DNA of 64,000 bases from NCBI GenBank assembly GCA_019359745.1, contig JAHHGT010000010.1, forward strand, positions 1-64,000. Direction: 5' to 3'. Positions 11,052-46,085 of the stretch are shown here, one piece after another. A model generated the notes under the pieces. The model was given only the letters and a program-made list of their open reading frames with translations, was not told the DNA's origin and made no database searches. The stretch is from Aphanothece saxicola GSE-SYN-MK-01-06B (lineage in GTDB: Bacteria; Cyanobacteriota; Cyanobacteriia; PCC-6307; Cyanobiaceae). The position numbers and the translations under genes were made by a program. The first letter of the stretch is position 1. Each line of letters starts with the position of its first letter.

Positions 11052-11663
11052 TCAAGGAACTCCGCCTTGGGCGGGCACCGGGCTATTGCCGACCTTACCG
11101 GGGCCGGTGGCGGCAGGAGGGACCACCACGGAAGACCCAGCGGTGGGGGCGGGCTCAAGCACGCCGAGCTCCTCGCTGAGGGGCCCGAAGAGCTTGAGCA
11201 GGGCCTTTCGGTACTGGGATTCGCTGATCACATCCTCATCCACCAGCTGGCGCAGGTTCTCGATGCGGGCCTTGATCTGGGCGTCCTTGAGCAGGGCGTT
11301 GCAGTCGAAACTCTGGCTTGTCTTCGCCAGCGGTACGTTGATGCTCAGCATGGCCAGCAGGGAGGAGCGATTGCCCACGTTGCTGGCGGCGTTGGGCGCC
11401 AGGATCACTTCATTGGCGGCTCCCCACTGGTCGGGATAGGCACCGGCCGAGAAGGAGAGGCTCGGTACGGAACCACCATCGGAGCTGCAGCGGATGCCGC
11501 CGCCCAGATCGATGGACACCCGGGAGCGCTGCATGTTGCCCTGGCTGGGGCTCAGATAGATCTGGGCACCGGCGGGGGCGCCGGCGACAAGGAGGCAGGT
11601 CCCTGCCCCGGCCAGAGCGAACAGACGCGCAAGGTGAACAATCCAGCGGGAGTGACGCCACAT
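11052..11663 (-). CDS. Exported protein with SHOCT-like C-terminal segment
   Basis: A 203-residue protein with a signal peptide (hydrophobic LARLFALAGAGTCLLVAGA, cleavage near AGAQ) and a mature N-terminal part rich in Ser/Gly beta-like sequence (IYLSPSQGNMQRSRVSIDLG, SLSFSAGAYPDQWGAANE). A charged helical stretch follows (DCNALLKDAQIKARIENLRQ, LVDEDVISESQYRKALLKLF), with the pattern of a SHOCT helix hairpin, and then a Pro/Val/Ala-rich tail. It is the last gene of the coat-U/chaperone operon, and its ATG lies 112 bases inside the preceding gene. Two cysteines in the mature protein may pair. It could be an accessory or outer-membrane assembly factor standing where an usher would be expected; this is inference only. 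Confidence 0.65.
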   Translation of the reverse strand: MWRHSRWIVHLARLFALAGAGTCLLVAGAPAGAQIYLSPSQGNMQRSRVSIDLGGGIRCSSDGGSVPSLSFSAGAYPDQWGAANEVILAPNAASNVGNRSSLLAMLSINVPLAKTSQSFDCNALLKDAQIKARIENLRQLVDEDVISESQYRKALLKLFGPLSEELGVLEPAPTAGSSVVVPPAATGPGKVGNSPVPAQGGVP

Positions 11664-12028
11664 ACGTAAAAGGGGCGGGTGAGAGTCAGGACGCGATAGG
11701 ACACGACACGGGATTGCCCGGGTCCGAGGCGAAAACTGGTGGGCCGCAGATGGATCAGGGTCTCAGATTCAGTTAGCGGCAGGGGCACCAGGCTGGGGGA
11801 TCGGGCCAAGCCACTGCCGATGGCGCCGTAAACCCCCAACCGCAGGCGGATCAGGCGGGGTTCGCTGTTGGCGATCTGGACCAGGCCGCGGCTGCTCCCC
11901 AGGCGCATCGGCCCCAGGGTCAGCGCCAGAGCCGGGGCCTGGTTGGTGAGGAGTAACACCAGCAGAACCAGAGTCTGCCGGGTTGGAGAACGCACGGACC
12001 TCATGGCTGCCACAGCGATCTGTTTCAT
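11552..12028 (-). CDS. Single-domain PapD-like periplasmic chaperone (copy 2)
   Basis: A 158-residue exported protein: signal peptide (LVLLVLLLTNQAPALA) and one immunoglobulin-like domain. The mature N-terminus LTLGPMRLGSSRGLVQIANS matches the first strand of PapD-type chaperones, and LRPTSFRLGPGQSRVVSYRV matches the conserved F1-G1 region that complements a pilin subunit. It then ends YVCGVTPAGLFTLRVCSLWP, where two cysteines 12 residues apart are shared with the paralogue at 12557-13000. PapD-family chaperones are normally about 220-250 residues with two domains; here the second domain is absent. The start overlaps the stop of the upstream subunit gene in ATGA (12025-12028), so translation is coupled. 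Function in folding exported subunits is inferred from family resemblance. Confidence 0.68.
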   Translation of the reverse strand: MKQIAVAAMRSVRSPTRQTLVLLVLLLTNQAPALALTLGPMRLGSSRGLVQIANSEPRLIRLRLGVYGAIGSGLARSPSLVPLPLTESETLIHLRPTSFRLGPGQSRVVSYRVLTLTRPFYVCGVTPAGLFTLRVCSLWPGQGPASLSPAPPPVPRSI

Positions 12029-12537
12029 TGCTCGAAACAGGTGGCGGTGGCCCGGGCGAGGTAGCTGCCAGCCTTGAATCCAGTGGCTGCGGTGAACTTC
12101 ACGTGCACAGGCGTCAGCTGCAGCGTGCCGTCAGCGTTGGGAATGTTGATCTCCGCCGTTGGCGCATAGGCCGACCCGCCGATGCGCACCTCACTGGAGC
12201 TGGGGATCGTGGTCCCACTCAGGGTGGGGGAAGCCACCTGCACCCGGGCCGCCGTTGTGAGATTGCTGTAGGCCGAAAGTTGACCGGGCTGGGGGTTGCC
12301 GAACACATCCAGCGTCACCCGGCCATCGGCGCCCAATTCGGAGGCATCGGAGGAGATGGTGCGGGCGTCGCGGGACACGGCGAGGCTTCCCTGGCTGAGC
12401 ACGAGCGTGCACTGGGGGGTATAAACCAACTCCTGGTACTCGACAGGCTGGGAATTGACGCCTGCGGCACTGGCCAGCCCCCCGCAGAGAAACAGGAGGC
12501 TGGTACAGCCGTGGAAGCAAAACAAACAGTGGTTCAT
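12025..12537 (-). CDS. Spore-coat-U-like exported subunit (copy 2)
   Basis: A 170-residue exported protein with a signal peptide (CTSLLFLCGGLASAAG) and an all-beta mature part. Features shared with the paralogue at 13044-13577 are an early cysteine (TPQCTLVLSQGSLAVSRDAR here), a middle run rich in Thr/Ser/Val, and an ending FTAATGFKAGSYLARATATC, the last strand and terminal cysteine of the coat-protein-U fold. Such subunits are assembled into thin surface fibres by chaperone-usher systems in other bacteria. It lies between the two chaperone-like genes, 19 bases after the first and overlapping the second by 4. The two subunits are only weakly alike, so each chaperone may serve its own subunit. 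Confidence 0.66.
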   Translation of the reverse strand: MNHCLFCFHGCTSLLFLCGGLASAAGVNSQPVEYQELVYTPQCTLVLSQGSLAVSRDARTISSDASELGADGRVTLDVFGNPQPGQLSAYSNLTTAARVQVASPTLSGTTIPSSSEVRIGGSAYAPTAEINIPNADGTLQLTPVHVKFTAATGFKAGSYLARATATCFEQ

Positions 12538-12556
12538 GGCGCCGCTGCGGTTGACC

Positions 12557-13000
12557 TCATCCGGTGGGTGGTTTGGCTGTTGGACCTCGCCAGTAGGAGC
12601 ACACCCGCAAGGTCAGCATTCCAGATGGTGTTTCACCGCAGATGAAAAACGGCTGAAGTGGATCCACAATCCTGTAGTTGATGGCGCGGCTTGAGGACCC
12701 CGCCATCCGCAGTGAGCGCGGCCGGTAGTGGACCACAGCCTGACTTTCTTCCAGGGACATCGGCTGAGCGGCAGGATTGACCTGACCGTTCAGTCGCGAC
12801 ACCTTGTAGACCTGCAACAGCACGCGAATCGAGTCCTGGGAATCATTTCGGACATCAAGGTGACCTGACGTCTTCAGCATCTCCAGAGGCCCCATGGTGA
12901 AGGCCTCGACCCGAAGGGGAACCAACAGGCCGAAAGCCAGGCAGAAAACCAGAAAAGGCGTGCGGCGAGCATGCCTGCTGCCGCACAGGTTGGCTTTCAC
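12557..13000 (-). CDS. Single-domain PapD-like periplasmic chaperone (copy 1)
   Basis: A 147-residue exported protein paralogous to the product of 11552-12028. After the signal peptide (PFLVFCLAFGLLVPLRVEA) the mature chain begins FTMGPLEMLKTSGHLDVRND, a PapD-type first strand, continues IRVLLQVYKVSRLNGQV, and reaches YRPRSLRMAGSSSRAINYRI. It ends FICGETPSGMLTLRVCSYWR with the same C-x12-C pair. Only one Ig-like domain fits in this length. It follows the first coat-U-like subunit by 43 bases and precedes the second by 19. No outer-membrane usher is found on either side. I am confident of the paralogy and export, less so of the chaperone function. Confidence 0.68.
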   Translation of the reverse strand: MKANLCGSRHARRTPFLVFCLAFGLLVPLRVEAFTMGPLEMLKTSGHLDVRNDSQDSIRVLLQVYKVSRLNGQVNPAAQPMSLEESQAVVHYRPRSLRMAGSSSRAINYRIVDPLQPFFICGETPSGMLTLRVCSYWRGPTAKPPTG

Positions 13001-13043
13001 AGAACAACTCCTTCAACGAACGATTCGCCTACCGAAGCGGCGA

Positions 13044-13577
13044 TCAGGTCTCACCTAGACATGTCACCACCACCGTGGCGCTGTAGGCACCACTGGTCCA
13101 GGGAGTGGCTGCGGCAAACGACAGGTTGACTGGCTTGGCGTTGATCGTCGTGGCGTCAACTGCGAATGGAAGCACCAGAGGTGCTGCTGCGCTTGTGCTT
13201 GTGGCAGGTGTCGCACCCTCGACGGCAACCGTGGCCGACGACGTGACGGGGGCACCCGTGCCCCGAGTCGTCAAGTCGACTGGCACCACAAAGTTGAGAC
13301 GGGGCCCTACCAAGCCCCCAATACCTGGAGTGGTGGTACTGGCGGACACCAAGGCCGGCGCACCTCCAGAATTCGCCGTGCTCAGGGTTGTGTAGTTATC
13401 AGTGGCGACGACAGCAAAATCGCCTGATGTGCCCGGAGTGATGGTGCACTGCCCGGTCAATGTTCCCTCAAAGAGAATGTCGGCGGCCTTGGCCGGCTCC
13501 AGACTCAAGAGGATTCCTGATGAAACCATGGCGACCGCAGCCGATGTGGCGACTTTGGCCCAAGTTGATGTATTCAA
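13044..13577 (-). CDS. Spore-coat-U-like exported subunit (copy 1)
   Basis: A 177-residue exported protein and the first gene of the operon. I choose TTG at 13577, preceded by GAGGG, because it directly precedes a signal peptide (VATSAAVAMVSSGILLSLEP, cleavage after AKA). The open frame continues to 13949, but that extension overlaps hemL upstream sequence and is not protein-like. The mature chain starts ADILFEGTLTGQCTITPGTS and ends LSFAAATPWTSGAYSATVVV then TCLGET, the same terminal strand and cysteine as in the 12025-12537 product. It is Thr/Ser/Ala-rich and beta-like throughout. Role: structural subunit of a surface fibre or coat, inferred from resemblance to the coat-U domain. Confidence 0.66.
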   Translation of the reverse strand: MNTSTWAKVATSAAVAMVSSGILLSLEPAKAADILFEGTLTGQCTITPGTSGDFAVVATDNYTTLSTANSGGAPALVSASTTTPGIGGLVGPRLNFVVPVDLTTRGTGAPVTSSATVAVEGATPATSTSAAAPLVLPFAVDATTINAKPVNLSFAAATPWTSGAYSATVVVTCLGET

Positions 13578-33415: not shown

Positions 33416-36400
33416 ATGGCTACCTCCTCCTATGCGATCAATTTTAATGGCCTGCTGGCCGAACTTGGGGAGCAGCAGATCTATACCTTTGATGGCACCG
33501 TTGGCGACAGAATCTACTTCGATGCCATTGATGCCGACCCGGTTTTTCAGAACATTACGTACAGCCTGATAGACCCATCGGGTGCCACGATCTATACCAA
33601 CTTTGATCACACCGCCGACAGTGCACCCGGCACCCTCACGGCAACCGGAACCTACCAGATCGTCATCAGGGGTGCTGCCAGCACAACAGGGGATTACAAC
33701 TTCAATCTGTTCAAACTGAACCAGGCCCCGGTGCTGACGCTGGGGACAACCATCAGCGATTCCCTCACCCCAGGCCTTGAGAGCGCGGTCTATCGCTTCA
33801 CCGGGACCAGGGGACAACGTCTGCAGTTTGACAGCCTCCTCGCCCCAGGCACCGCCACCAACTGGAGCCTATGGGGGCCCAACAATCAACAGGTCAACCC
33901 CTTCACCTTCGTTGGGACAGATTTCAGCGTCACCCTTCCCGGCGACGGTGAGTACGTCCTGATCATCGATGGAACGGGTGACGTCGCCAGCCTGAATTAC
34001 AGCTTCCAGGTCAACGACATCAGTGATCCACCACCGGCCTCACCCACGGCTTTCCCCTTCGTTCGCTCCGGGAATGTCGCCGCAGGCACCCCTGTCGATT
34101 TCACCTTCACGGCAGCAGCCGGAACCCTGCTGTACTTCGACAGCCTGGATCAGGACTTTGATGCTGTCAATGTCAACATTCTAGATCCCGGCGGCGCGAC
34201 ACTTTCAACCAACAATGCTGCTTCCAATTTTTCCCAGATTTTGCCACGATCAGGAGCGTACACCGTAAGACTCAGCGGCACAGGAGATTTTAACTTCCGC
34301 CTGCTGGATGTGGCCGCCAATGCCACAGCCCTGACACTGGGATCGGTCGTCACCGAAAACGTTTCCCCCACGCAAGGGACCAGGATCTTCAGCTTCACAG
34401 GCACTGTGGGGCAGCAGCTTTTCTATGATGGCCAGGATCAGGATTTCGACGCCGTTCAGACGTTTCTGATCGGTCCAAGTGGCAACAGGCTTAGCAGCCC
34501 AAACGTCAACGCCTCCAGCGACAGCGACATCATCACCCTGAGTGAATCAGGCACCTACTACCTGGTCCAGGAGTCCACAGGGCAAGCGGCTACGGATTTC
34601 AGCTTCCAGTTGCTTGAAGTTCCTGGGACAGATCTCGCCCTCGATGCGCTGACAAACAGCACACTATCCGCTTTTGAAACCGAGCTTTATCGCTTCAATG
34701 GCACCGCCGGACAAAGGCTTGCCTTTGACAGCCAATCGCCGACGGCATTTGGCGCCAACGTGTTTCTGCGCGGCCCCAATGGTGAGGCCATCACCAGCTG
34801 GAATCTCTCCAGCGATGCTGCATTCACGCTGACACGCACCGGCAACTTCTTTCTTGTCATCGGTAGCACCACTGCCACCAGTTTTCCCTACAGTTTTCAG
34901 CTGGTCACACCCAACACAACCACAACAGACTTGAGCCTGGGAAGTGTGGTCAATGGCACGATCAGCGAGGTGGGCGAGCAAGACATTTACACGTTCACCG
35001 GAGCCGCTGGACAGCGACTGCTCTATGACGCCACGGTCAACAATGGCAACGCCTTGACCGTCACACTCTTGAGCCCATCTGGGGCGGTGGTGGGCAGCAC
35101 GATCAATTCCAACTTCGATGGGAGTCTTGTCACCCTCACCGAAGCAGGCGTCTATCAACTGGTTGTGCAGGGGCAGGTTGGCGGTGGCAACAGTACGGGC
35201 AACTACAACTTCAAGCTGATCGATGCCTCCGCTGCCCCCACGATCGACCTTGATGCCGTCACCACAGGGACCCTGTCCCCTGGGGCGGCGAGCGATTTCT
35301 ATCGCTTCACGGCCGCAGCGGGTCAGCGGCTTGTGTTTGATGCCATCTCCTCAGTATTTACAGCCAATTACCTTGTTTTCGATCAGGGGAACACCCAGAT
35401 TTTCGCTACCAACATCGGCTTTGATAGTGAATTCACAGCTCCGGAAGCCGGAACCTACCTGCTGCAGATCCAAGGCGGCAGCACGGCTCCTGTGAACTAC
35501 AGCTTCCAGCTTGTCAGCCCCACCACCACCAGTACGGCACTGACGCTGAACAGTCCGGTGGCAGGAACAATCACCGAACTGGGCGAGCAAGATATTTACA
35601 CGTTCACGGGAACAGCTGGCCAGCGTCTGATCTACGACGCCACCGCCAACAACGCCAACAATCTGCTCGTCAGCCTGCTCAGCCCCAGCGGAGGCCTGGT
35701 TGTCAGCAACAACGACACCGACTTTGACAACGGACTAATCACCCTCACGGAAACGGGCACCTATCAGTTGATCGTTCGGGGGAACATAGGCGTCGCCAAC
35801 AGCACAGGCAACTACAACTTCAAATTGATCGATGCTTCAGCTGCATCCACGATCAACCTCGATGCCGAAACCACAGGGACCCTGTCTCCAGGGGCGGCAA
35901 GTGATTTCTATCGCTTTACGGCCGCAGCAGGGCAGCGGCTGGTGTTTGATGCCATCACCGGGAGTGGGGCCAACTTCCGTGTCTTTGATCTGGGGAACAC
36001 CCAGATTTTCGGTACCAACATCGGCTTTGATAGTGAATTCACAGTGCCGGAAGCTGGGACCTACCTGCTGCAGATCGAAGGCAATGCCAACGCCGTCACT
36101 CCTGTCAACTACAGCTTCCAGCTGGTCAGCCCCAGCACCACCGTCACGGCGCTGACCCTGACCAGCCCGGTGGCAGGAACGATCAGCGAACTGGGTGAGC
36201 AGGACATCTACACCTTTGCGGGCACAGCGGGCCAGCGACTGATCTACGACACCACGGTCAACAACGGCAACAATTTACTGGTTAGTTTGGTCAGCCCCAG
36301 CGGAGTTGTGGGGGTCAGCAACCACGACACCGACTTTGATGATGGTCTGATCACGCTTACGGAAACGGGCACCTATCAGTTGATTGTTCGGGGGAATGTT

Positions 36401-39400
36401 GGCTCCGCCAACAGCACGGGAAACTACAACTTCAAGCTGATCGACGCCAGCGCAGCCCCACTCATCACGCTGAACTCGGCGATCACCGGAACGCTGACGC
36501 CGGGCGCCGAATCGGACTTCTTCCGCCTCTCAGGAACGGCTGGTCAGCGGCTCAATTTCGACAGCCTCGCCGCTGCAACCGGGGCTTCATGGCTGCTCTA
36601 TGACCCCAGCAACAGCTTCGTGTCAGGGTCCGGGGTGGGAGTGGGCACCGACTTTGTTGCTTTCCTGGAGGAAACAGGCACCTATCTGCTTGAAATCAGA
36701 GGCTCCAGTGCCACCAATGTCAATTACAACTTCAATGTGACGGATGTCAGCGATCCGCTGCCCGCCGCACCCACCACCTTCCCCTTCAGCCAATCGGGAA
36801 CGGTTTCGGCGTCAACGGTTGATTTCACCATCACGGCTGCCGCAGGACAGCTTCTGTACGTCGACAGCCTGGATCCGGACTTTGACAGTGTGTCTCTCTT
36901 TATCCTGGACACAGGCAACTCGAATGCTGCCATTTATGCAAACAGCGCCAGCTTCGATTCATCCGGGCTTGTCCTGCCACGCTCCGGGAACTACACGGTC
37001 AGAGTCACTGGAACGGGTGATTACAACTTTCAGATCCTCGACCTGGCGGCCAGTTCCACCCTGCTGACACTTGGCAGCTCCACCAGTGGGCCCCTCGCGT
37101 CAGCGGCCTCGCGAGCCTATCGCTTCACCGGCAGCGCAGGTCAACGGCTCTACTACGACGCCCTGGAAGCGGATGGCGACAACATCAACGTTGTCCTGTT
37201 ACGCCCTGACGGGACGATTGTTCAGCTGAATCAAAATTCAGAAGCAGACCGGGATTTGTTCACGCTGGCTGATGCAGGAACGTACCACCTTGTGCTCAGA
37301 AACAACTCTGCAGCGGCGGCGGATTTCAACTTCGCCCTCAGAGATGCCGCAGCCGCCACCCCGCTGAGTTTCGATACCGTCACCAATGGCACCCTCAGCC
37401 CCGGCCAGGAAACCGACCTCTATCGCTTCACCGGGACGGCTGGCCAGCGCCTCGGCTTCGACAGCCTGACGGCAGGATTTCCTGCAGCCAACTGGAAGCT
37501 GTACGGTCCGACCAATCAAGTCCTCACGAACCAGAACATCGGCAGTGATGTTGTCATCAACCTGCCAGCCGATGGCACCTATGTTCTGGCGATCACAGGA
37601 TCGAGTGCCCCCAATCTCGATTACAGCTTCAGCCTGGTCACTCCCACCACAACCACCACCGCCCTCAGCTTCAACACCCCCATTGCCAACACGATCAGCG
37701 AGCTGGGCGAGCGCGACATCTACACCTTCACCGGTTCGGCGGGACAACAGCTCTTCTACGACGCCCTCACCAACGACTTTTCCAAAAGTTTCCCCGCACG
37801 CCTGATTGACCCCAGCGGCGACATCGTCTTCAGCCAAGCGCACTCGGGCGACAGGATTTTCACCCTCACTGAAGACGGCACCTATCAGCTGCTGCTGGAA
37901 AGCACCTCCGATTTCTCTCTCGACACGGGCAGCTACAACTTCCAGTTACTGGATCTGGCCGCCGCGACGCCGCTCAGCTTCGATACGGTCACCAACGGCA
38001 CCAGCTCCGGCGGCCGTGAAGCCGACCTCTACCGCTTCACGGGAACGGCCGGCCAGCGCCTTGTCTTTGACAGCCAGACAGCAGCAGGCCCATCAGGCCT
38101 CTGGGTTGTTTACGGACCGACTCTTCAAACCAGCGCAGTCGTTTCGATCAGCGGCGATCAGGAGCTGAACCTGACCGCTGATGGCAGCTACATCCTGGCG
38201 ATTCAGGGTTCCAATGCCACCAGCTTCAACTACAGCTTCAGCCTGGTCACCCCCACCACAACCACCACTGCCCTCAGCCTCAACACTCCCGTGTCCGGCA
38301 CGATCGCCGAGATGGGTGAGCGCGACATTTACACCTTCACAGGCACAGTGGGACAGCGGCTCTTCTACGACGCCCTCACCAACGATTTTTCCAAAAATTT
38401 CCGGGTACGGCTGACCGACCCAAGCGGCGACATCGTTTCTCTCAACCAGCAGCACTATTCCGATTCCAACACCCCCTTCACCCTCACCGAAGCGGGCACC
38501 TATCAACTTGTTCTGGAGAGCACCTCCGCCTTCTCCCTCGACACGGGCAGCTACAGCTTCCAGTTGCTGGATCTGGCCGCCGCGACAGAGCTCAGTTTCG
38601 ATACCGTCACCACCGGCACCCTTGCCCCCGGCCAGGAAACCGACCTCTATCGCTTCACCGGCTCGGCCGGTCAACGCCTTGTCTTCGACAGCCAGACACC
38701 AGGATTCCCTTCGGCCAACTGGGGGCTTTTCGGACCCACCAATCAGTTCCTGACCAACCAGAACATCACCACCGATCTGGAGCTCAATCTCACCGCTGAT
38801 GGCACCTACATCCTGGCCATCGATGGTGCCAGCGCGACCACCATCAACTACAGCTTCAGTCTGATCACCCCAACCACGGCGCTCACCGGTTCCCCCAGCA
38901 TCATCGTCAACGACCGTACAGGCGCCACCAACACACCCATTGCGCTCAACATCGCCGCCAGCTTCGCCAGCAGTGATGCCAACGATCTACGCACCATCCT
39001 GATCTCCGGGGTACCCACAGGGGCCACACTCTCCGCCGGCACCGACAACAACAATGGCACCTGGAGCCTGACCCCCGCCCAACTCACGGGTCTGACCATC
39101 ACGGTCGCCACGGCCGCCAACTTCGCGCTCACCGTGACCGCGACCAGCGCCGAGACCACCGGAGACACGGCCACCACCACGGCGACGTTCTCCGTCATCG
39201 TCAACGTCGCGACCGGCATCACTGTCACGCCAACCTCGGGTCTGGTCACCAGCGAGTCTGGTGGCTCGGCCACGTTCTCGGTGGTTCTCGACAGTCAGCC
39301 CGCGGGCAACGTCACTGTCGGCATCAGCAGTTCCGACACCACGGAGGGAACCCCCAACGTTTCCTCGCTGACGTTCACCCCTGCCAACTGGAATGTCGCC

Positions 39401-42400
39401 CAGACCGTGGTTGTCACGGGCGTCGATGATTCCGTCATCGACGGCACGGTGCCGTACTCCATCATCACCGCGCCGGCAACGAGCAGCGACCCCAACTACA
39501 ACGGCCTCAATGCCGCCGATGTCTCGCTCACCAACACCGACAACGATACGGCGGGTGTCACGGTTTCGCCTACCGGTGGTTTGATCACCACGGAAGCGGG
39601 GGGGACGGCCGGCTTCAACGTTCGTCTCACCAGCCAGCCCACGGCCAATGTCAGCATCAGCCTGAGCAGTTCCGACACCACGGAAGGCACCGTCAGCACC
39701 ACCTCCCTCACCTTTACGCCGGCCAACTGGAATGTGTTCCAGTTCGTCACCGTCACGGGCGTCGATGATGCCGTGGTGGATGGCAGCGTCGCCTACACGA
39801 TTTTCACCGGTGCCACCAGCAGCACCGATAGCAACTTCAACGGACTTGCCGTTGCCGATGTCAGTGTCACCAACCTCGACAACGACGCCGCTTCCTTCTC
39901 CATCAACGATGTCTCCATCGTGGAAGGCAACGCCGGCACCTCATTGGCCGTCTTCACCGTCACGCTCAGCAACGCCGTCGCTGGTGGGGCGTCCGTCTCC
40001 TACGCCACCGCCAACGGCACCGCCACCGCCGGCTCCGACTACGTCGCCACTTCCGGCACGCTCAACTTCACTGGCAACGCCGGTGAAACCAAGACTGTTT
40101 CGGTCACCATCAACGGCGACACCACCGTTGAGCCCAACGAATCCTTCTTCCTCAACCTCTCCGCTCCCACCAACAGCGTCACCCTCGCCGACTCCCAGGG
40201 TCTCGGCACCATCACCAACGATGACGCCGCGCCCCTGCCTGTGGTCACCCTGGCCGTCTCCCCCGCCAGTGTTCTGGAGGACGGCGCAGCCAACCTCATC
40301 TATACCTTCACCCGCACAGGCGCCACCACCAATCCCCTCACCGTCAACTACTCCATCGGAGGCAGCGCCAGCATTAACAGCGATTTCGGCCAGATCGCCT
40401 CCTTCGTCACCTTCGCAGCCGGCTCCGCCACAGCCACCGTCACTGTTGATCCCACACCAGACACCGTCCTCGAGATTGACGAAACCGTCTCCCTCACGAT
40501 TCTGGCCAACGCCGCCTACACCATTGGCACCCCCGGACCCGTCGCCGGCACCATCACCAACGACGACGCCGCCATCTTCTCCGTCAGCGATGTGTCGATT
40601 GTGGAAGGAGATTCCGGCACCTCGCTCGCCGTCTTCACCGTCACCCTCAGCAATGCTATCGCCGGTGGGGCTGCCGTCAGCTACATCACCGGCAACAACA
40701 CCGCGATTGCCGGCTCCGACTTTGTCCCTACTGGCGGCACCCTCAACTTCACCGGAAACGCCGGGGAAACCAAGACTGTCTCCGTCACCATCAACGGCGA
40801 CACCGTTGTTGAGCCGGATGAGTCCTTCTTCCTCTTCCTCGGCTACCCAACCTCCGGCACCACTGGGATCACCTTCGTTACCGGCAACATCCTCAACGAT
40901 GATGCCGCTCCATTGCCCGTTGTCTCCCTGGCGGTGTCTCCCAGCAGCGTGCTGGAAAACGGAGCAACGAACCTCATCCATACCTTCTCCCGCACCGGCG
41001 ACACTACCAATCCCCTCACCGTCAATTACACCGTCGGCGGCACCGCCACGGGCGGGAGCGATTACACCGCCATCCTCTCCTCTGTCACCTTTGCCGCCGG
41101 CGCTGCCACGGCCACCGTCACTGTCGATCCCAGCGCCGATTCCGTCCTCGAGCCCGACGAAACCGTCAGCCTCACCCTGCTCGCCAACGCGACCTACACC
41201 ATCGGCACCCCCGGACCCGTCACCGGCACCATCACCAATGACGACGCCGCCTCCTTCTCCATCAACGATGTCTCGATCGTGGAAGGCAACGCCGGTACTT
41301 CCCTCGCCGTCTTCACCGTCACCCTCAGCAACGCCGTCGCCGGGGGGGCTTCCGTTTCCTTTGCCACCGCCAATGGCACCGCCACCGCTGGCTCCGACTA
41401 CGTCGCCACTTCCGGCACCCTGAACTTCACGGGCAACGCCGGTGAAACCAAGACTGTCTCGGTCACCATCAACGGCGACACCACCGTCGAGCCCAACGAA
41501 TCCTTCTTCCTCAACCTCTCCGCTCCCACCAACGGCGTCACCCTCGCCGACTCCCAGGGAGCCGGCACCATCCTCAATGACGATGCCGCACCGGTGGCCA
41601 TCACGACGACACCTGCGTTTGCCGTTCGGTCGACGAATGCCAACACATCATTCATTGACCCCAATCCGTTCGGACTGACGGAGGTGGATGACGCTAGCCC
41701 CACATTTGTGGACATCGATGGCGATGGTGACCTCGACGCTTTCATCGGAAATAGTGCCGGGGATACCCTCTTCTTCCTCAATACTGCCGCTGCTGGCAGT
41801 GTTAGCCCCACCTTCGCTGCCCCTCTCACCAACCCCTTCGGCCTTCTGAATGTAGGTTCCTCCTCAAGACCCAGCTTCGTCGACATTGACGGAGATGGTG
41901 ATCTCGATGCTCTAATTGGCAACCTCAACGGCCAAATCCAGTTCTTCCGCAACACGGCGACTCCCGGGAGCGCCATCCCAGCCTTCAGCTTGGAATCCAT
42001 CAACCCATTTGGTCTTCCTGATGTGGGTTTCGATGCGAGTCCCACCTTCGTCGATATCGATGGAGATGCTGATCTCGATGCCTTCATCGGAGACCGCGGA
42101 GGATTCCTTGCATTCTTCCGTAATACGGCTCCTGCTGGTAGCAGCACTCCGTCCTTTGCTCCTGCGATTGATCTGTTTGGTGGCGATCTGGGCAGTGACA
42201 CGAGTCCTGAGCTGGTGGACATCGATGGTGATGGCGATCTTGATGCCTTTGTCGGCACACGTCTTGGCGATATTCTTTACTTCCAGAACACCGCACCCGC
42301 TGGCAGCACAACGCCAATCTTCGCTGCGCCCATCATTGACCCCTTTGGCTATACTCAACTTTCACGAGATGGAAGTGCAATCATCCGATTGGTCGATATC

Positions 42401-44599
42401 GATGGCGATGGTGATCTGGATGCATTTACAGGCTTTTCCAACGGCGAAATCGCCTTCTTCCGCAACACCGCACCTGTCCTTGGCCTCAACAGCACCAATG
42501 CCAATGGCACGTACACCGTCGGCGACATCATCACCCTCACGGTGACGTTCTCCGAAATCGTTGATGTCACTGGCAGCCCTCAGCTGCAGCTGGAAACTGG
42601 AACCACTGATCGCTTCGCCACCTTCACGGGCGGCTCCGGCACAAACACCCTGACGTTCTCGTACACCGTTCAGTCAGGCGATAGTTCCCCTGATCTGGAT
42701 GCCCTTAGTGCCTCCGCCCTGACACTGAATGGCGGCACCATCCAGGATGTCGATGGAAATAATGCCATTCTCACTCTCGCTGCTCCTGGTTCTCCGGCAT
42801 CCCTAGCTGCGAAGAAGAACCTGGTCATCGATACGTCCAATGCTGTCGTGTTGCCAACGATCTCGCTCTCGCTGACCCCAAGTTCTGTTCTTGAGAACGG
42901 ACCCACCAACCTCGTCTACACCTTCACCCGCACCGGAGACACCGCCAGCTCTCTGCTGGTCAACTATTCCATCGGCGGCACCGCCACCAACGGCAGCGAC
43001 TACGGCCTGATCGGCAGCAGTGTCACCTTTGCCGCCGGCGCTGCCACCGCCACCGTCACTGTCGATCCCACAGCCGATTCCGTCCTCGAGCCCGACGAAA
43101 CCGTCAGCCTCACCCTCCTCGCCAACGCGGCCTACACCATCGGCACCGCCGCACCCGTCACCGGCACCATCACCAATGACGACGCCGCTTCCTTCTCCAT
43201 CAACGATGTCTCCATCGTGGAAGGCAACGCCGGCACCTCATTGGCCGTCTTCACCGTCACGCTCAGCAATGCCGTTGCCGGGGGGGCGTCCGTCTCCTAC
43301 GCCACCGCCAATGGCACCGCCACCGCCGGCTCCGACTACGTCGCCACTTCCGGCACGCTCAACTTCACAGGCAACGCCGGTGAAACCAAGACTGTCTCGG
43401 TCACCATCAACGGCGACACCACCGTCGAGCCCAACGAGTCCTTCTTCCTCAACCTCTCCGCTCCAACCAACGGCGTCACCCTCGCCGATTCCCAGGGCGC
43501 CGGCACCATCCTCAATGACGATGCCGCTCCCCTGCCCGTCATCTCCCTGGCCGTCTCGCCAGCCAGCGTCATCGAGAACGGCGTCGCGAACCTCGTCTAC
43601 ACCTTCACCCGCACCGGAGACACCGCCAGCTCTCTGCTGGTCAACTATTCCATCGGCGGCACCGCCACCAACGGCAGCGACTACGGCCTGATCGGCAGCA
43701 GTGTCACCTTTGCCGCCGGCGCTGCCACCGCCACCGTCACTGTCGATCCCACAGCCGATTCCGTCCTCGAGCCCGACGAAACCGTCAGCCTCACCCTCCT
43801 CGCCAACGCGGCCTACACCATCGGCACCGCCGCACCCGTCACCGGCACCATCACCAATGACGACGCCGCTTCCTTCTCCATCAACGATGTCTCCATCGTG
43901 GAAGGCAACGCCGGCACCTCATTGGCCGTCTTCACCGTCACGCTCAGCAATGCCGTTGCCGGGGGGGCGTCCGTCTCCTACGCCACCGCCAATGGCACCG
44001 CCACCGCCGGCTCCGACTACGTCGCCACTTCCGGCACGCTCAACTTCACAGGCAACGCCGGTGAAACCAAGACTGTCTCGGTCACCATCAACGGCGACAC
44101 CACCGTCGAGCCCAACGAGTCCTTCTTCCTCAACCTCTCCGCTCCAACCAACGGCGTCACCCTCGCCGATTCCCAGGGCGCCGGCACCATCACCAACGAC
44201 GACTTGGGACGGGTGATCACAGGAACCCGGAACAGGGATTCTTTGGTGGGAACCGATGGCGACGATGTGATCACCGGACTCCAGGGGGCCGACACGGTCC
44301 GGGGCAACGGCGGAGCCGATCGGTTCGTCTACACGAGCATCGTCGATGCCGGCGACACGATCATCGACTTCAACAGGGCCGAGGGCGACAAGGTCGACCT
44401 CGTGGGGGCCCTGGCCAGCGTCGGCTACGGAGGAACCACTCCAATCAGCGATGGCTATCTGAAATTTGTGGCCATTGGCAGCGACACGATGCTGCAGATC
44501 GATCCCGATGGCTCGGGCCTGGCCGCTGCCCGCAACTTCATCCTGTTCAAGAACGTCTCGCTGGCCACCCTCAGCAACCCGGACAATTTCATTGTCTGA
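33416..44599 (+). CDS. Giant secreted repeat protein: PPC, Calx-beta, FG-GAP, RTX end
   Basis: A 3727-residue protein with no N-terminal signal peptide and an RTX C-terminus, so probably a type I secretion substrate at the cell surface. By residue, about 18 PPC-like beta domains run from 1 to about 1820, each with a YRFTGTAGQRLVFD-type core. A bacterial Ig-like segment spans about 1820-1935. Two repeats with SLTFTPANWNV span 1935-2160. Calx-beta-like repeats of two alternating kinds (SFSINDVSIVEGNAGTSLAV and SLAVSPASVLENG) span 2160-2725. Five FG-GAP/VCBS-like repeats with FVDIDGDGDLDAFIG, putative calcium loops, span 2725-3020. An Ig-like YTVGDIITLTVTFSE segment spans 3020-3147. More Calx-beta repeats span 3147-3600. 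The end (DGDDVITGLQGADTV, NGGADRFVY) is hemolysin-type. No secretion genes are in the window. Likely adhesion, motility or surface-layer role; G+C is visibly lower than in neighbours. Confidence 0.88.
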   Translation: MATSSYAINFNGLLAELGEQQIYTFDGTVGDRIYFDAIDADPVFQNITYSLIDPSGATIYTNFDHTADSAPGTLTATGTYQIVIRGAASTTGDYNFNLFKLNQAPVLTLGTTISDSLTPGLESAVYRFTGTRGQRLQFDSLLAPGTATNWSLWGPNNQQVNPFTFVGTDFSVTLPGDGEYVLIIDGTGDVASLNYSFQVNDISDPPPASPTAFPFVRSGNVAAGTPVDFTFTAAAGTLLYFDSLDQDFDAVNVNILDPGGATLSTNNAASNFSQILPRSGAYTVRLSGTGDFNFRLLDVAANATALTLGSVVTENVSPTQGTRIFSFTGTVGQQLFYDGQDQDFDAVQTFLIGPSGNRLSSPNVNASSDSDIITLSESGTYYLVQESTGQAATDFSFQLLEVPGTDLALDALTNSTLSAFETELYRFNGTAGQRLAFDSQSPTAFGANVFLRGPNGEAITSWNLSSDAAFTLTRTGNFFLVIGSTTATSFPYSFQLVTPNTTTTDLSLGSVVNGTISEVGEQDIYTFTGAAGQRLLYDATVNNGNALTVTLLSPSGAVVGSTINSNFDGSLVTLTEAGVYQLVVQGQVGGGNSTGNYNFKLIDASAAPTIDLDAVTTGTLSPGAASDFYRFTAAAGQRLVFDAISSVFTANYLVFDQGNTQIFATNIGFDSEFTAPEAGTYLLQIQGGSTAPVNYSFQLVSPTTTSTALTLNSPVAGTITELGEQDIYTFTGTAGQRLIYDATANNANNLLVSLLSPSGGLVVSNNDTDFDNGLITLTETGTYQLIVRGNIGVANSTGNYNFKLIDASAASTINLDAETTGTLSPGAASDFYRFTAAAGQRLVFDAITGSGANFRVFDLGNTQIFGTNIGFDSEFTVPEAGTYLLQIEGNANAVTPVNYSFQLVSPSTTVTALTLTSPVAGTISELGEQDIYTFAGTAGQRLIYDTTVNNGNNLLVSLVSPSGVVGVSNHDTDFDDGLITLTETGTYQLIVRGNVGSANSTGNYNFKLIDASAAPLITLNSAITGTLTPGAESDFFRLSGTAGQRLNFDSLAAATGASWLLYDPSNSFVSGSGVGVGTDFVAFLEETGTYLLEIRGSSATNVNYNFNVTDVSDPLPAAPTTFPFSQSGTVSASTVDFTITAAAGQLLYVDSLDPDFDSVSLFILDTGNSNAAIYANSASFDSSGLVLPRSGNYTVRVTGTGDYNFQILDLAASSTLLTLGSSTSGPLASAASRAYRFTGSAGQRLYYDALEADGDNINVVLLRPDGTIVQLNQNSEADRDLFTLADAGTYHLVLRNNSAAAADFNFALRDAAAATPLSFDTVTNGTLSPGQETDLYRFTGTAGQRLGFDSLTAGFPAANWKLYGPTNQVLTNQNIGSDVVINLPADGTYVLAITGSSAPNLDYSFSLVTPTTTTTALSFNTPIANTISELGERDIYTFTGSAGQQLFYDALTNDFSKSFPARLIDPSGDIVFSQAHSGDRIFTLTEDGTYQLLLESTSDFSLDTGSYNFQLLDLAAATPLSFDTVTNGTSSGGREADLYRFTGTAGQRLVFDSQTAAGPSGLWVVYGPTLQTSAVVSISGDQELNLTADGSYILAIQGSNATSFNYSFSLVTPTTTTTALSLNTPVSGTIAEMGERDIYTFTGTVGQRLFYDALTNDFSKNFRVRLTDPSGDIVSLNQQHYSDSNTPFTLTEAGTYQLVLESTSAFSLDTGSYSFQLLDLAAATELSFDTVTTGTLAPGQETDLYRFTGSAGQRLVFDSQTPGFPSANWGLFGPTNQFLTNQNITTDLELNLTADGTYILAIDGASATTINYSFSLITPTTALTGSPSIIVNDRTGATNTPIALNIAASFASSDANDLRTILISGVPTGATLSAGTDNNNGTWSLTPAQLTGLTITVATAANFALTVTATSAETTGDTATTTATFSVIVNVATGITVTPTSGLVTSESGGSATFSVVLDSQPAGNVTVGISSSDTTEGTPNVSSLTFTPANWNVAQTVVVTGVDDSVIDGTVPYSIITAPATSSDPNYNGLNAADVSLTNTDNDTAGVTVSPTGGLITTEAGGTAGFNVRLTSQPTANVSISLSSSDTTEGTVSTTSLTFTPANWNVFQFVTVTGVDDAVVDGSVAYTIFTGATSSTDSNFNGLAVADVSVTNLDNDAASFSINDVSIVEGNAGTSLAVFTVTLSNAVAGGASVSYATANGTATAGSDYVATSGTLNFTGNAGETKTVSVTINGDTTVEPNESFFLNLSAPTNSVTLADSQGLGTITNDDAAPLPVVTLAVSPASVLEDGAANLIYTFTRTGATTNPLTVNYSIGGSASINSDFGQIASFVTFAAGSATATVTVDPTPDTVLEIDETVSLTILANAAYTIGTPGPVAGTITNDDAAIFSVSDVSIVEGDSGTSLAVFTVTLSNAIAGGAAVSYITGNNTAIAGSDFVPTGGTLNFTGNAGETKTVSVTINGDTVVEPDESFFLFLGYPTSGTTGITFVTGNILNDDAAPLPVVSLAVSPSSVLENGATNLIHTFSRTGDTTNPLTVNYTVGGTATGGSDYTAILSSVTFAAGAATATVTVDPSADSVLEPDETVSLTLLANATYTIGTPGPVTGTITNDDAASFSINDVSIVEGNAGTSLAVFTVTLSNAVAGGASVSFATANGTATAGSDYVATSGTLNFTGNAGETKTVSVTINGDTTVEPNESFFLNLSAPTNGVTLADSQGAGTILNDDAAPVAITTTPAFAVRSTNANTSFIDPNPFGLTEVDDASPTFVDIDGDGDLDAFIGNSAGDTLFFLNTAAAGSVSPTFAAPLTNPFGLLNVGSSSRPSFVDIDGDGDLDALIGNLNGQIQFFRNTATPGSAIPAFSLESINPFGLPDVGFDASPTFVDIDGDADLDAFIGDRGGFLAFFRNTAPAGSSTPSFAPAIDLFGGDLGSDTSPELVDIDGDGDLDAFVGTRLGDILYFQNTAPAGSTTPIFAAPIIDPFGYTQLSRDGSAIIRLVDIDGDGDLDAFTGFSNGEIAFFRNTAPVLGLNSTNANGTYTVGDIITLTVTFSEIVDVTGSPQLQLETGTTDRFATFTGGSGTNTLTFSYTVQSGDSSPDLDALSASALTLNGGTIQDVDGNNAILTLAAPGSPASLAAKKNLVIDTSNAVVLPTISLSLTPSSVLENGPTNLVYTFTRTGDTASSLLVNYSIGGTATNGSDYGLIGSSVTFAAGAATATVTVDPTADSVLEPDETVSLTLLANAAYTIGTAAPVTGTITNDDAASFSINDVSIVEGNAGTSLAVFTVTLSNAVAGGASVSYATANGTATAGSDYVATSGTLNFTGNAGETKTVSVTINGDTTVEPNESFFLNLSAPTNGVTLADSQGAGTILNDDAAPLPVISLAVSPASVIENGVANLVYTFTRTGDTASSLLVNYSIGGTATNGSDYGLIGSSVTFAAGAATATVTVDPTADSVLEPDETVSLTLLANAAYTIGTAAPVTGTITNDDAASFSINDVSIVEGNAGTSLAVFTVTLSNAVAGGASVSYATANGTATAGSDYVATSGTLNFTGNAGETKTVSVTINGDTTVEPNESFFLNLSAPTNGVTLADSQGAGTITNDDLGRVITGTRNRDSLVGTDGDDVITGLQGADTVRGNGGADRFVYTSIVDAGDTIIDFNRAEGDKVDLVGALASVGYGGTTPISDGYLKFVAIGSDTMLQIDPDGSGLAAARNFILFKNVSLATLSNPDNFIV
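42908..43510 (+). repeat. 603-bp perfect direct repeat inside the giant gene, copy 1
   Basis: This 603-base (201-codon) block recurs at 43589-44191, with a 681-base period and no mismatch that I could find by eye. It encodes one complete pair of Calx-beta-like repeats (SIGGTATNGSDYGLIG... to ...LADSQGAGTI). The identity at silent positions implies a recent duplication or ongoing gene conversion. Confidence 0.85.
43589..44191 (+). repeat. 603-bp perfect direct repeat inside the giant gene, copy 2
   Basis: Second copy of the block at 42908-43510, offset by 681 bases (227 codons). The copies diverge just outside both ends: c versus g before, ctcaat versus accaac after. Shorter, slightly diverged relatives of the second half occur at about 39890-40215 and 41255-41575. 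Confidence 0.85.
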
Positions 44600-44720
44600 A
44601 CGTTCTGACCATGGCCTGGAGCCTGACGCTGAACTAAACGTCGGATGAGCCAGACTTGAGCTAAGATGAGAGACATCTGAGTTGATGCCCCTTCTCGGAC
44701 CAGCCCCGTTGTCCCCTCCC

Positions 44721-45278
44721 ATGACCAGCCTCCTCCCCAAACTTGTCTTGACGACGGCAGGACTCACACTCAGCGTGGCGCTTGTCCAGCCTGCCCCGCT
44801 TAAGGCGGCGGTCGTGGGCTACACCTTCGACGTCCTGATTGACTCGGGTCCCCTGCAGCCCAACAGCTATTCCGGCAGCTTCTCCTACGACACCCAGACA
44901 TTCAGTCTCACCGACTTTTCGTTTCTGTTTCAGGGCACGCCATACGACGAGAACGATGATCCGAACGCTTCTGTCCTGTTCGACAATGGTGTCTTTCTAG
45001 GTCTGGAGTATTCGGTCAACACCCTGCCTGCCTTCTCCTTTGTGCCTGGTTTCTTTGATGTCGGAGAGGCCTTTTTCGCCTACGACCTGGAGGCCAGCGG
45101 CGGACAGGGTGGCGCGGGAAGTCTTGCGTTCACAAGGGTCCTGAATCCGGAGACGTCAGCTGTTCCAGGGCCCCTTCCCCTGCTGGGGGCCGCCGCCTGC
45201 TTCGGCTACAGCCGCAGGCTGAAGAAGCGGATCAACGGCAGGACCCCTTCCCCGACGATCGGCAGCGACCCCGACTGA
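44721..45278 (+). CDS. Exported protein with PEP-CTERM-like C-terminal tail
   Basis: A 185-residue protein: signal peptide (LLPKLVLTTAGLTLSVALVQ, cleavage near LKA), a beta-rich body rich in Phe, Asp and Ser (YTFDVLIDSGPLQPNSYSGS, FSYDTQTFSLTDFSFLFQG) and a C-terminal sorting-like tail VPGPLPLLGAAACFGYSRR. The tail combines a VPGPLP motif, a short hydrophobic helix and a basic end (RRLKKRI), the cyanobacterial form of PEP-CTERM signals. About 20 extra residues follow the basic cluster. ATG 44721 is preferred because it directly precedes the signal peptide; ATG 44685 is possible. It lies 121 bases downstream of the giant gene, same strand. An adhesive or surface role is likely; no exosortase is in the window. 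Confidence 0.75.
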   Translation: MTSLLPKLVLTTAGLTLSVALVQPAPLKAAVVGYTFDVLIDSGPLQPNSYSGSFSYDTQTFSLTDFSFLFQGTPYDENDDPNASVLFDNGVFLGLEYSVNTLPAFSFVPGFFDVGEAFFAYDLEASGGQGGAGSLAFTRVLNPETSAVPGPLPLLGAAACFGYSRRLKKRINGRTPSPTIGSDPD

Positions 45279-45413
45279 TCGGGGCTGGCGGCAGCTGCCC
45301 TCTGAGCCCAGCAGCACGGCATCCCATCTGCAGCAATTGTGAAGTTGCAGCCGATCAGACCGTATGGATCGGGGCATCAGAGAACAATGATAGTGAATTA
45401 CGAGTAAGCCGCA

Positions 45414-46085
45414 ATGGAGCGGGTCAGCCTTCACAGGTCTGCCGCGGTCGTCCTTGGGGTTGTCGCGGGCGTCCTGTTGGTGCCGCCACCAGCGTTCGCG
45501 GTGGATCTGGTCTTCATCTTCGATGGCTTGAGCGGCACCTTCCGCGGACTTGAGGCCGGGACCCCCACCAGTTCTCCGCCTGCGGCCGTCGAAATGAATT
45601 TTGCTTCGTCATCAGGTTCTCCCAAGGGGCGCTACGAAAAGGCGCCACGGTGCCTGCTGCCGGACTGCGGCTACATCTCTGTGACCGCCAACGGATCCGC
45701 CTTCATTGCTCCAACCGTCTTCCATGGCCATAACGAAGGCTGGCAACTGCTGATCAGCTCCGTTCCAAAAACTGCTCTTGGCGCCACACCCTGGGAGCTC
45801 AGCGGGTTGCTCCTCTACTGCCCAGGTTTTGAGCTGGCCGGCGATATTGAAGAATGCCCGCCTCCGGGTCCAGGTACCGAGTCGAGATCCGGATGGCTCA
45901 CACCGCCCCCGCACGCCGACCCGGGCGACCCAGGCGAGCCCACCGTGCCTGGCCCACTCCCCTGGCTTGGTCTCGCCGCCGCCTTCGGGTTCAGCCGCCG
46001 GCTGAGGGCCAGGATCCGCGGCCCCTTCAGCGGTAGTTCTCAAACTGCAGGGGCACTTCCAGGTCCTCCGCCCGCAGCAGGGTGA
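45414..46085 (+). CDS. Second exported protein with PEP-CTERM-like tail
   Basis: A 223-residue protein with a signal peptide (AAVVLGVVAGVLLVPPPAFA) and a body unlike the preceding gene's product (VDLVFIFDGLSGTFRGLEAG, then two cysteine-containing stretches APRCLLPDCGYISV and LLYCPGFELAGDIEECPPP). It shares the same C-terminal tail VPGPLPWLGLAAAFGFSRRL followed by RARIRG. The chain continues 23 residues past the basic cluster, overlapping the end of yajQ on the other strand by 59 bases, so the extension is probably not conserved. A Gly/Pro/Asp-rich linker precedes the tail. It is probably co-sorted with the neighbouring product. Confidence 0.75.
   Translation: MERVSLHRSAAVVLGVVAGVLLVPPPAFAVDLVFIFDGLSGTFRGLEAGTPTSSPPAAVEMNFASSSGSPKGRYEKAPRCLLPDCGYISVTANGSAFIAPTVFHGHNEGWQLLISSVPKTALGATPWELSGLLLYCPGFELAGDIEECPPPGPGTESRSGWLTPPPHADPGDPGEPTVPGPLPWLGLAAAFGFSRRLRARIRGPFSGSSQTAGALPGPPPAAG

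Follow-up and report, generated by a model that had tools for sequence, protein, structure and literature searches.

Classical chaperone-usher chaperones comprise two Ig domains over about 230 residues, and assembly by the pathway is thought to require both a two-domain chaperone of this type and an usher. In the cyanobacterium Synechocystis sp. PCC 6803, the CccS/CccP pair (slr1667/slr1668) combines an SCPU subunit with a PapD_N chaperone and has no linked usher (PMC4390875; PMC6755745). Export of CccS is reported to depend on the chaperone CccP, and an unlinked usher, Slr0019, has been proposed to serve the pair (PMC4390875). CccS/CccP is the closest described system to the gene cassette analyzed here, which resembles it in being a cyanobacterial subunit-chaperone pair with a secreted subunit (judged, for the cassette, from signal peptides) and with no usher linked to the locus. 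The cassette differs from CccS/CccP in that its proteins lack SCPU and PapD_N Pfam matches, its chaperone has one domain and no usher was found for it. Further, no equivalent of the last cassette gene, here termed gene5, is described for CccS/CccP, whose proposed usher is encoded elsewhere in the genome.

The window, i.e. the whole 64,000-nucleotide stretch of Aphanothece saxicola DNA that was analyzed, contains at 11052-13577 (minus strand) five ORFs that open in the order sub1, chapA, sub2, chapB and gene5, as an earlier note on this DNA had proposed for five same-strand genes. The first, sub1 (13044..13577, minus strand), encodes, as judged from its ORF and translation, a secreted subunit-like protein of 177 residues with two cysteines; its start codon is TTG, with GAGGG lying upstream. 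It is followed by chapA (12557..13000, minus strand), which has a GTG start and encodes a one-domain PapD-like chaperone of 147 residues with a C-x12-C pair, assigned by its alignment with chapB, and by sub2 (12025..12537, minus strand), which encodes a secreted pilin-like subunit of 170 residues with two cysteines and a predicted FimA-like fold. A second one-domain PapD-like chaperone, of 158 residues, again with a C-x12-C pair and assigned on its predicted fold, is encoded by chapB (11552..12028, minus strand), and the last gene, gene5 (11052..11663, minus strand), encodes a secreted protein of 203 residues with two conserved cysteines and a proline-rich end. The sub2 and chapB ORFs overlap by 4 nt, with the chapB start lying within ATGA, and the 3' end of chapB and the 5' end of gene5 overlap by 112 nt in different frames (11552..11663, minus strand), such that one stretch of DNA encodes both the last strand of the chaperone and the signal peptide of gene5. 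An overlap of the chaperone and gene5 ORFs, of 70-130 nt when each ORF is taken to begin at its first start codon, is present in 33 of the 36 cassettes that have both genes (including the window and loci L016, L022, L023 and L036). All five products bear apparent signal peptides, as read by eye. None of the five proteins, and none of the relatives tried, could be placed above cut-off in a Pfam, NCBIfam or PHROGs family, and sequence-profile searches of the PDB returned nothing meaningful; weak PDB profile matches between the gene5 tail and cytochrome bc1 subunit 6 were disregarded.

The five-gene arrangement is not random. In Aphanothece cf. minutissima CCALA 015 all five genes recur with their order unchanged, flanked as in the window by a gene for a glcD-like FAD oxidase and by hemL (both named by eye), and a three-gene core is distributed far more widely. 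Between the two genomes sub2, chapB and gene5 are 73%, 73% and 81% identical, respectively, with pN/pS values of 0.32-0.40. These three genes are under purifying selection, because of which the possibility that the operon is a degraded remnant was rejected. The more diverged sub1 and chapA have 29% and 36% identity with their positional homologues in CCALA 015.

The core of the cassette consists of three genes (subunit, one-domain chaperone and gene5), and the five-gene form is lineage-specific. A gene5 profile matched 41 of the 400 genomes of the family, representing 11 of its 59 genera, together with one further cassette genome in another family (G228). The chaperone gene lies beside 36, and the subunit gene beside 32, of 38 distinct gene5 copies, a count that takes in a few near-duplicate loci and in which some missing genes reflect contig ends; for 32 of these copies the subunit gene, the chaperone gene and gene5 follow one another in that order on a single strand, with gene5 being the last gene throughout the conserved cassettes. 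In the chaperone tree, the chapA and chapB sequences of the two five-gene genomes cluster in one supported group, together with a single long-branch row. The tree is consistent with the subunit-chaperone pair having been duplicated locally in tandem, an event from which the five-gene form may have arisen, with long branches blurring the detail. Two further matches were rejected as cassettes, one (L026) being to the SHOCT tail of an unrelated protein and the other (L003) a chance match. Phage carriage was dropped as an explanation, no relative of the cassette having been found in the viral contigs searched. The system had been suggested to be picocyanobacterial and possibly undescribed; the cassette is widespread in picocyanobacteria and unannotated, and is apparently undescribed in the searchable literature, no description having been found in the open literature, which our search covered incompletely.

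Structure prediction gave chaperone-like and pilin-like, rather than unrelated, folds for chapB and sub2. The AlphaFold2 model of chapB, built with ten relatives, has a core pLDDT of over 90 and holds a single domain, at the end of which the chapA and chapB ORFs stop (147 and 158 residues including the signal peptide), in agreement with the proposal of one-domain chaperones of about 150 residues; all 33 members of the chaperone family are of this one-domain size. In a Foldseek search of the PDB, nearly all of the 44 matches to chapB at E ≤ 0.001 were chaperone-usher chaperones, with Caf1M, CsuC and EcpB in the top rows at 8-17% identity. Structural alignment with VIA-align covered only the first domain of chaperone-usher chaperones (Z 8.4-10.3); MSP and ASH domains scored nearly as high (Z 8.4-9.0). 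The sequence comparisons point in the same direction. The chaperone profile built on mature domains matches a PapD_N chaperone of two domains that is encoded in a cyanobacterial usher operon, and hhalign of the one-domain family with sixteen such two-domain cyanobacterial chaperones gave 84.8%, compared with 0.1% for subunit and gene5 controls. A class-wide profile search recovered the same PapD_N protein, together with three further proteins of two domains from subunit/usher-like operons. Pfam made no PapD_N call for these three proteins, and its PapD_N model did not match chapA or chapB themselves. hhalign values of 64-77% against E. coli chaperones were inflated by signal peptides and were set aside as main evidence; the mature domains alone gave 12%, with shuffled sequences giving 0.4%. 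Overall, chapB is predicted to correspond to the N-terminal domain of a PapD-type chaperone. The homologous chaperone links the cassette to cyanobacterial chaperone-usher operons of the SCPU type (L089, G223), but the latter differ in having a two-domain chaperone of about 250-300 residues, a linked usher and an SCPU-family subunit.

Exactly two cysteines are present in the mature part of every one of the 33 chaperones, with an arginine two residues past the second in 23 of them. The C-x12-C pair described as invariant in the earlier note is found in both chapA and chapB, but is not a family-wide property, since the spacing is 12-13 residues in the group that includes the window and 22-28 in other groups. 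In the chapB model the pair is placed near the last two strands. A disulfide between the F1 and G1 strands is the hallmark of the FGL chaperones (PMC4133393), and by analogy the cassette cysteines may form its equivalent. The cassette chaperone thus resembles FGL/archaic chaperones, such as Caf1M and CsuC, in the fold of the N-terminal Ig domain and, presumably, in having a cysteine pair where the F1-G1 disulfide is expected, but differs from them in lacking a second domain and an usher and in its very low identity.

The suggestion that the subunits are coat-U-like was not borne out. PF05229 (SCPU/spore coat U) matches neither sub1 nor sub2, although a true cyanobacterial SCPU protein scores 1e-32 with it, and hhalign of the subunits with cyanobacterial coat-U proteins gave 0.2-0.3%; a coat-U identity was rejected on this basis. 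Instead, the AlphaFold2 model of sub2 (pLDDT 79.2, pTM 0.73) is FimA-like: the six best Foldseek rows (E 7.5e-4) are FimA structures, two of them titled self-complemented, and FimA leads the VIA-align results (Z 7.3, model residues 28-170). We thus assign sub2, with moderate confidence, as a pilin with a predicted FimA-like fold. The likeness to the type 1 pilin FimA extends to an N-terminal extension and to the first cysteine, both of which are in register in the hhalign alignment of the sub2 family with E. coli pilins, and to a glycine 14 residues from the C terminus, which is present in sub2 and most of its relatives. Unlike in FimA, the second cysteine of sub2 is on the last strand, and there is no significant sequence homology, hhalign of the sub2 family with E. 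coli pilins giving 1.6%, with shuffles at 0.1%; as a yardstick, E. coli pilins gave 10.9% and 0.8% with two sets of cyanobacterial usher-operon subunits.

The product of gene5 had been described as SHOCT-like, a resemblance that stands only in weak form: its tail is probably helical and SHOCT-like, but PF09851 (SHOCT) did not match the window protein, and the best relative, at E 0.06, was below cut-off. A separate observation concerns a 308-residue secreted protein from another cyanobacterial family (L032:1048-1974), which adjoins small secreted ORFs and shares with gene5 the motif around 'LNVPLGG...C' (E 1.1e-4 over 54 positions). It may be distantly related to gene5 and belong to a different surface-protein cluster.

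As the earlier note had stated, there is no usher at the locus, and PF00577 detected none in the genome; a two-domain chaperone was likewise found neither at the locus nor, by profile search, elsewhere in the genome. Across the 42 cassette genomes, several of which are single contigs, none had a PF00577 usher over cut-off; a sub-threshold usher match at L076 (G723), aligning over 66 positions of the profile within a frame of 2,934 residues, was rejected. The same profile found ushers in 39 of 242 genomes of the class, so cyanobacterial ushers are detectable by it. Because the two-domain chaperone and the usher, both defining features, are absent, we have not classified the cassette as a member of the chaperone-usher systems. 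In other cyanobacteria, subunit/chaperone operons encode a divergent usher-like protein without a PF00577 match; a profile of this protein, the positive control for which was recovered, gave no match in the 25 cassette genomes tested. In these operons (L117:3104-7753, L118:6944-11977 and L119:1-2784), subunits containing cysteines are encoded with a two-domain PapD-like protein and the usher-like protein. The usher-like protein, of 877-1037 residues, has a C-terminal CarboxypepD_reg domain and a weak CooC_C match, and the operons are a second chaperone-usher-like system that is missed by the standard model.

On balance, we consider it probable that the operon is an expanded form of the three-gene cassette, and that the cassette is related to chaperone-usher assembly but reduced and without an usher, a single Ig domain with a conserved cysteine pair shielding the pilin-like subunit in the periplasm. 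By this mechanism, all of the cassette products would cross the inner membrane by Sec via their signal peptides. The single Ig domain of the chaperone, its fold being predicted, would then hold the subunit in the periplasm by donor-strand complementation, the cysteine pair probably locking its presumed F1-G1 hairpin as in FGL chaperones. Since the subunit has a FimA-like N-terminal extension, it could subsequently polymerise by donor-strand exchange or complement itself. Absence of the second chaperone domain is observed together with absence of the usher, and the two losses may be causally linked. At the weakest step, gene5 would be the likeliest cassette protein to act as anchor, terminator or outlet partner. 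A fuller version, i.e. an usher-independent fibre or coat route in which a one-domain FGL-like chaperone passes pilins to gene5 as terminator, anchor or oligomeric outlet with no usher barrel, is put forward only tentatively, and we regard it as rather doubtful in that complete form.

Alternatively, it may be that the subunit is not polymerised into fibres at all, but complements itself via its N-terminal extension to give an envelope or secreted protein that is a monomer or small oligomer, with the one-domain protein being no more than a folding escort. The sub2 model aligns best, from residue 28 on, with FimA monomers, several of which are titled self-complemented, and no usher or assembly platform is present in the searched genomes; however, predictions of pilin monomers are expected to fold back anyway, such that the model cannot separate a self-complemented from a polymerising state, and the presence of a dedicated chaperone and of an extra subunit-chaperone pair suggests more than a monomer. 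We consider this reading unlikely. It appears less likely still that the system is not usherless, with the subunits being exported by an unlinked, divergent outer-membrane gate or by a shared channel of another type. The unlinked Slr0019 proposed for CccS/CccP provides a precedent (PMC4390875), as does the usher-like protein of other cyanobacteria that is invisible to PF00577, and a still more divergent gate could be present and have been missed; nonetheless, no gate was revealed by PF00577 (42 genomes) or by the profile of the divergent usher-like protein (25 cassette genomes), single-contig genomes included.

The similarity of chapB to MSP and ASH domains (Z 8.4-9.0), and the weak resemblance of one related two-domain protein to the WxL-interacting domain, raise the question of whether the one-domain protein is a chaperone, or whether it is a PapD/MSP/ASH superfamily member with a structural or adaptor role, joining the subunit and gene5 in a small complex. 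The overwhelming predominance of chaperones in the top chapB Foldseek rows, the reach of the family profile to true PapD_N proteins of usher operons and the position of the chaperone gene directly 3' of a pilin-like gene all argue against the latter, which we regard as improbable. If the preferred reading, that of a reduced and usherless relative of chaperone-usher assembly, is correct, a natural half-chaperone operating without an usher would show which parts of the chaperone-usher pathway are dispensable. The cassette would also be a candidate surface system for picocyanobacteria, the surface appendages of which are little known.

Two side observations may be added. In two relatives from the same family (L023:2044-3030 and L024:298-1311), the gene after the cassette resembles, by eye, an AraC-type regulator, hinting at possible regulation. 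Within the window, positions 34000-46000 have a G+C content of 0.57-0.62 and a GC skew down to -0.29, compared with a G+C content of about 0.62-0.75 over the rest.
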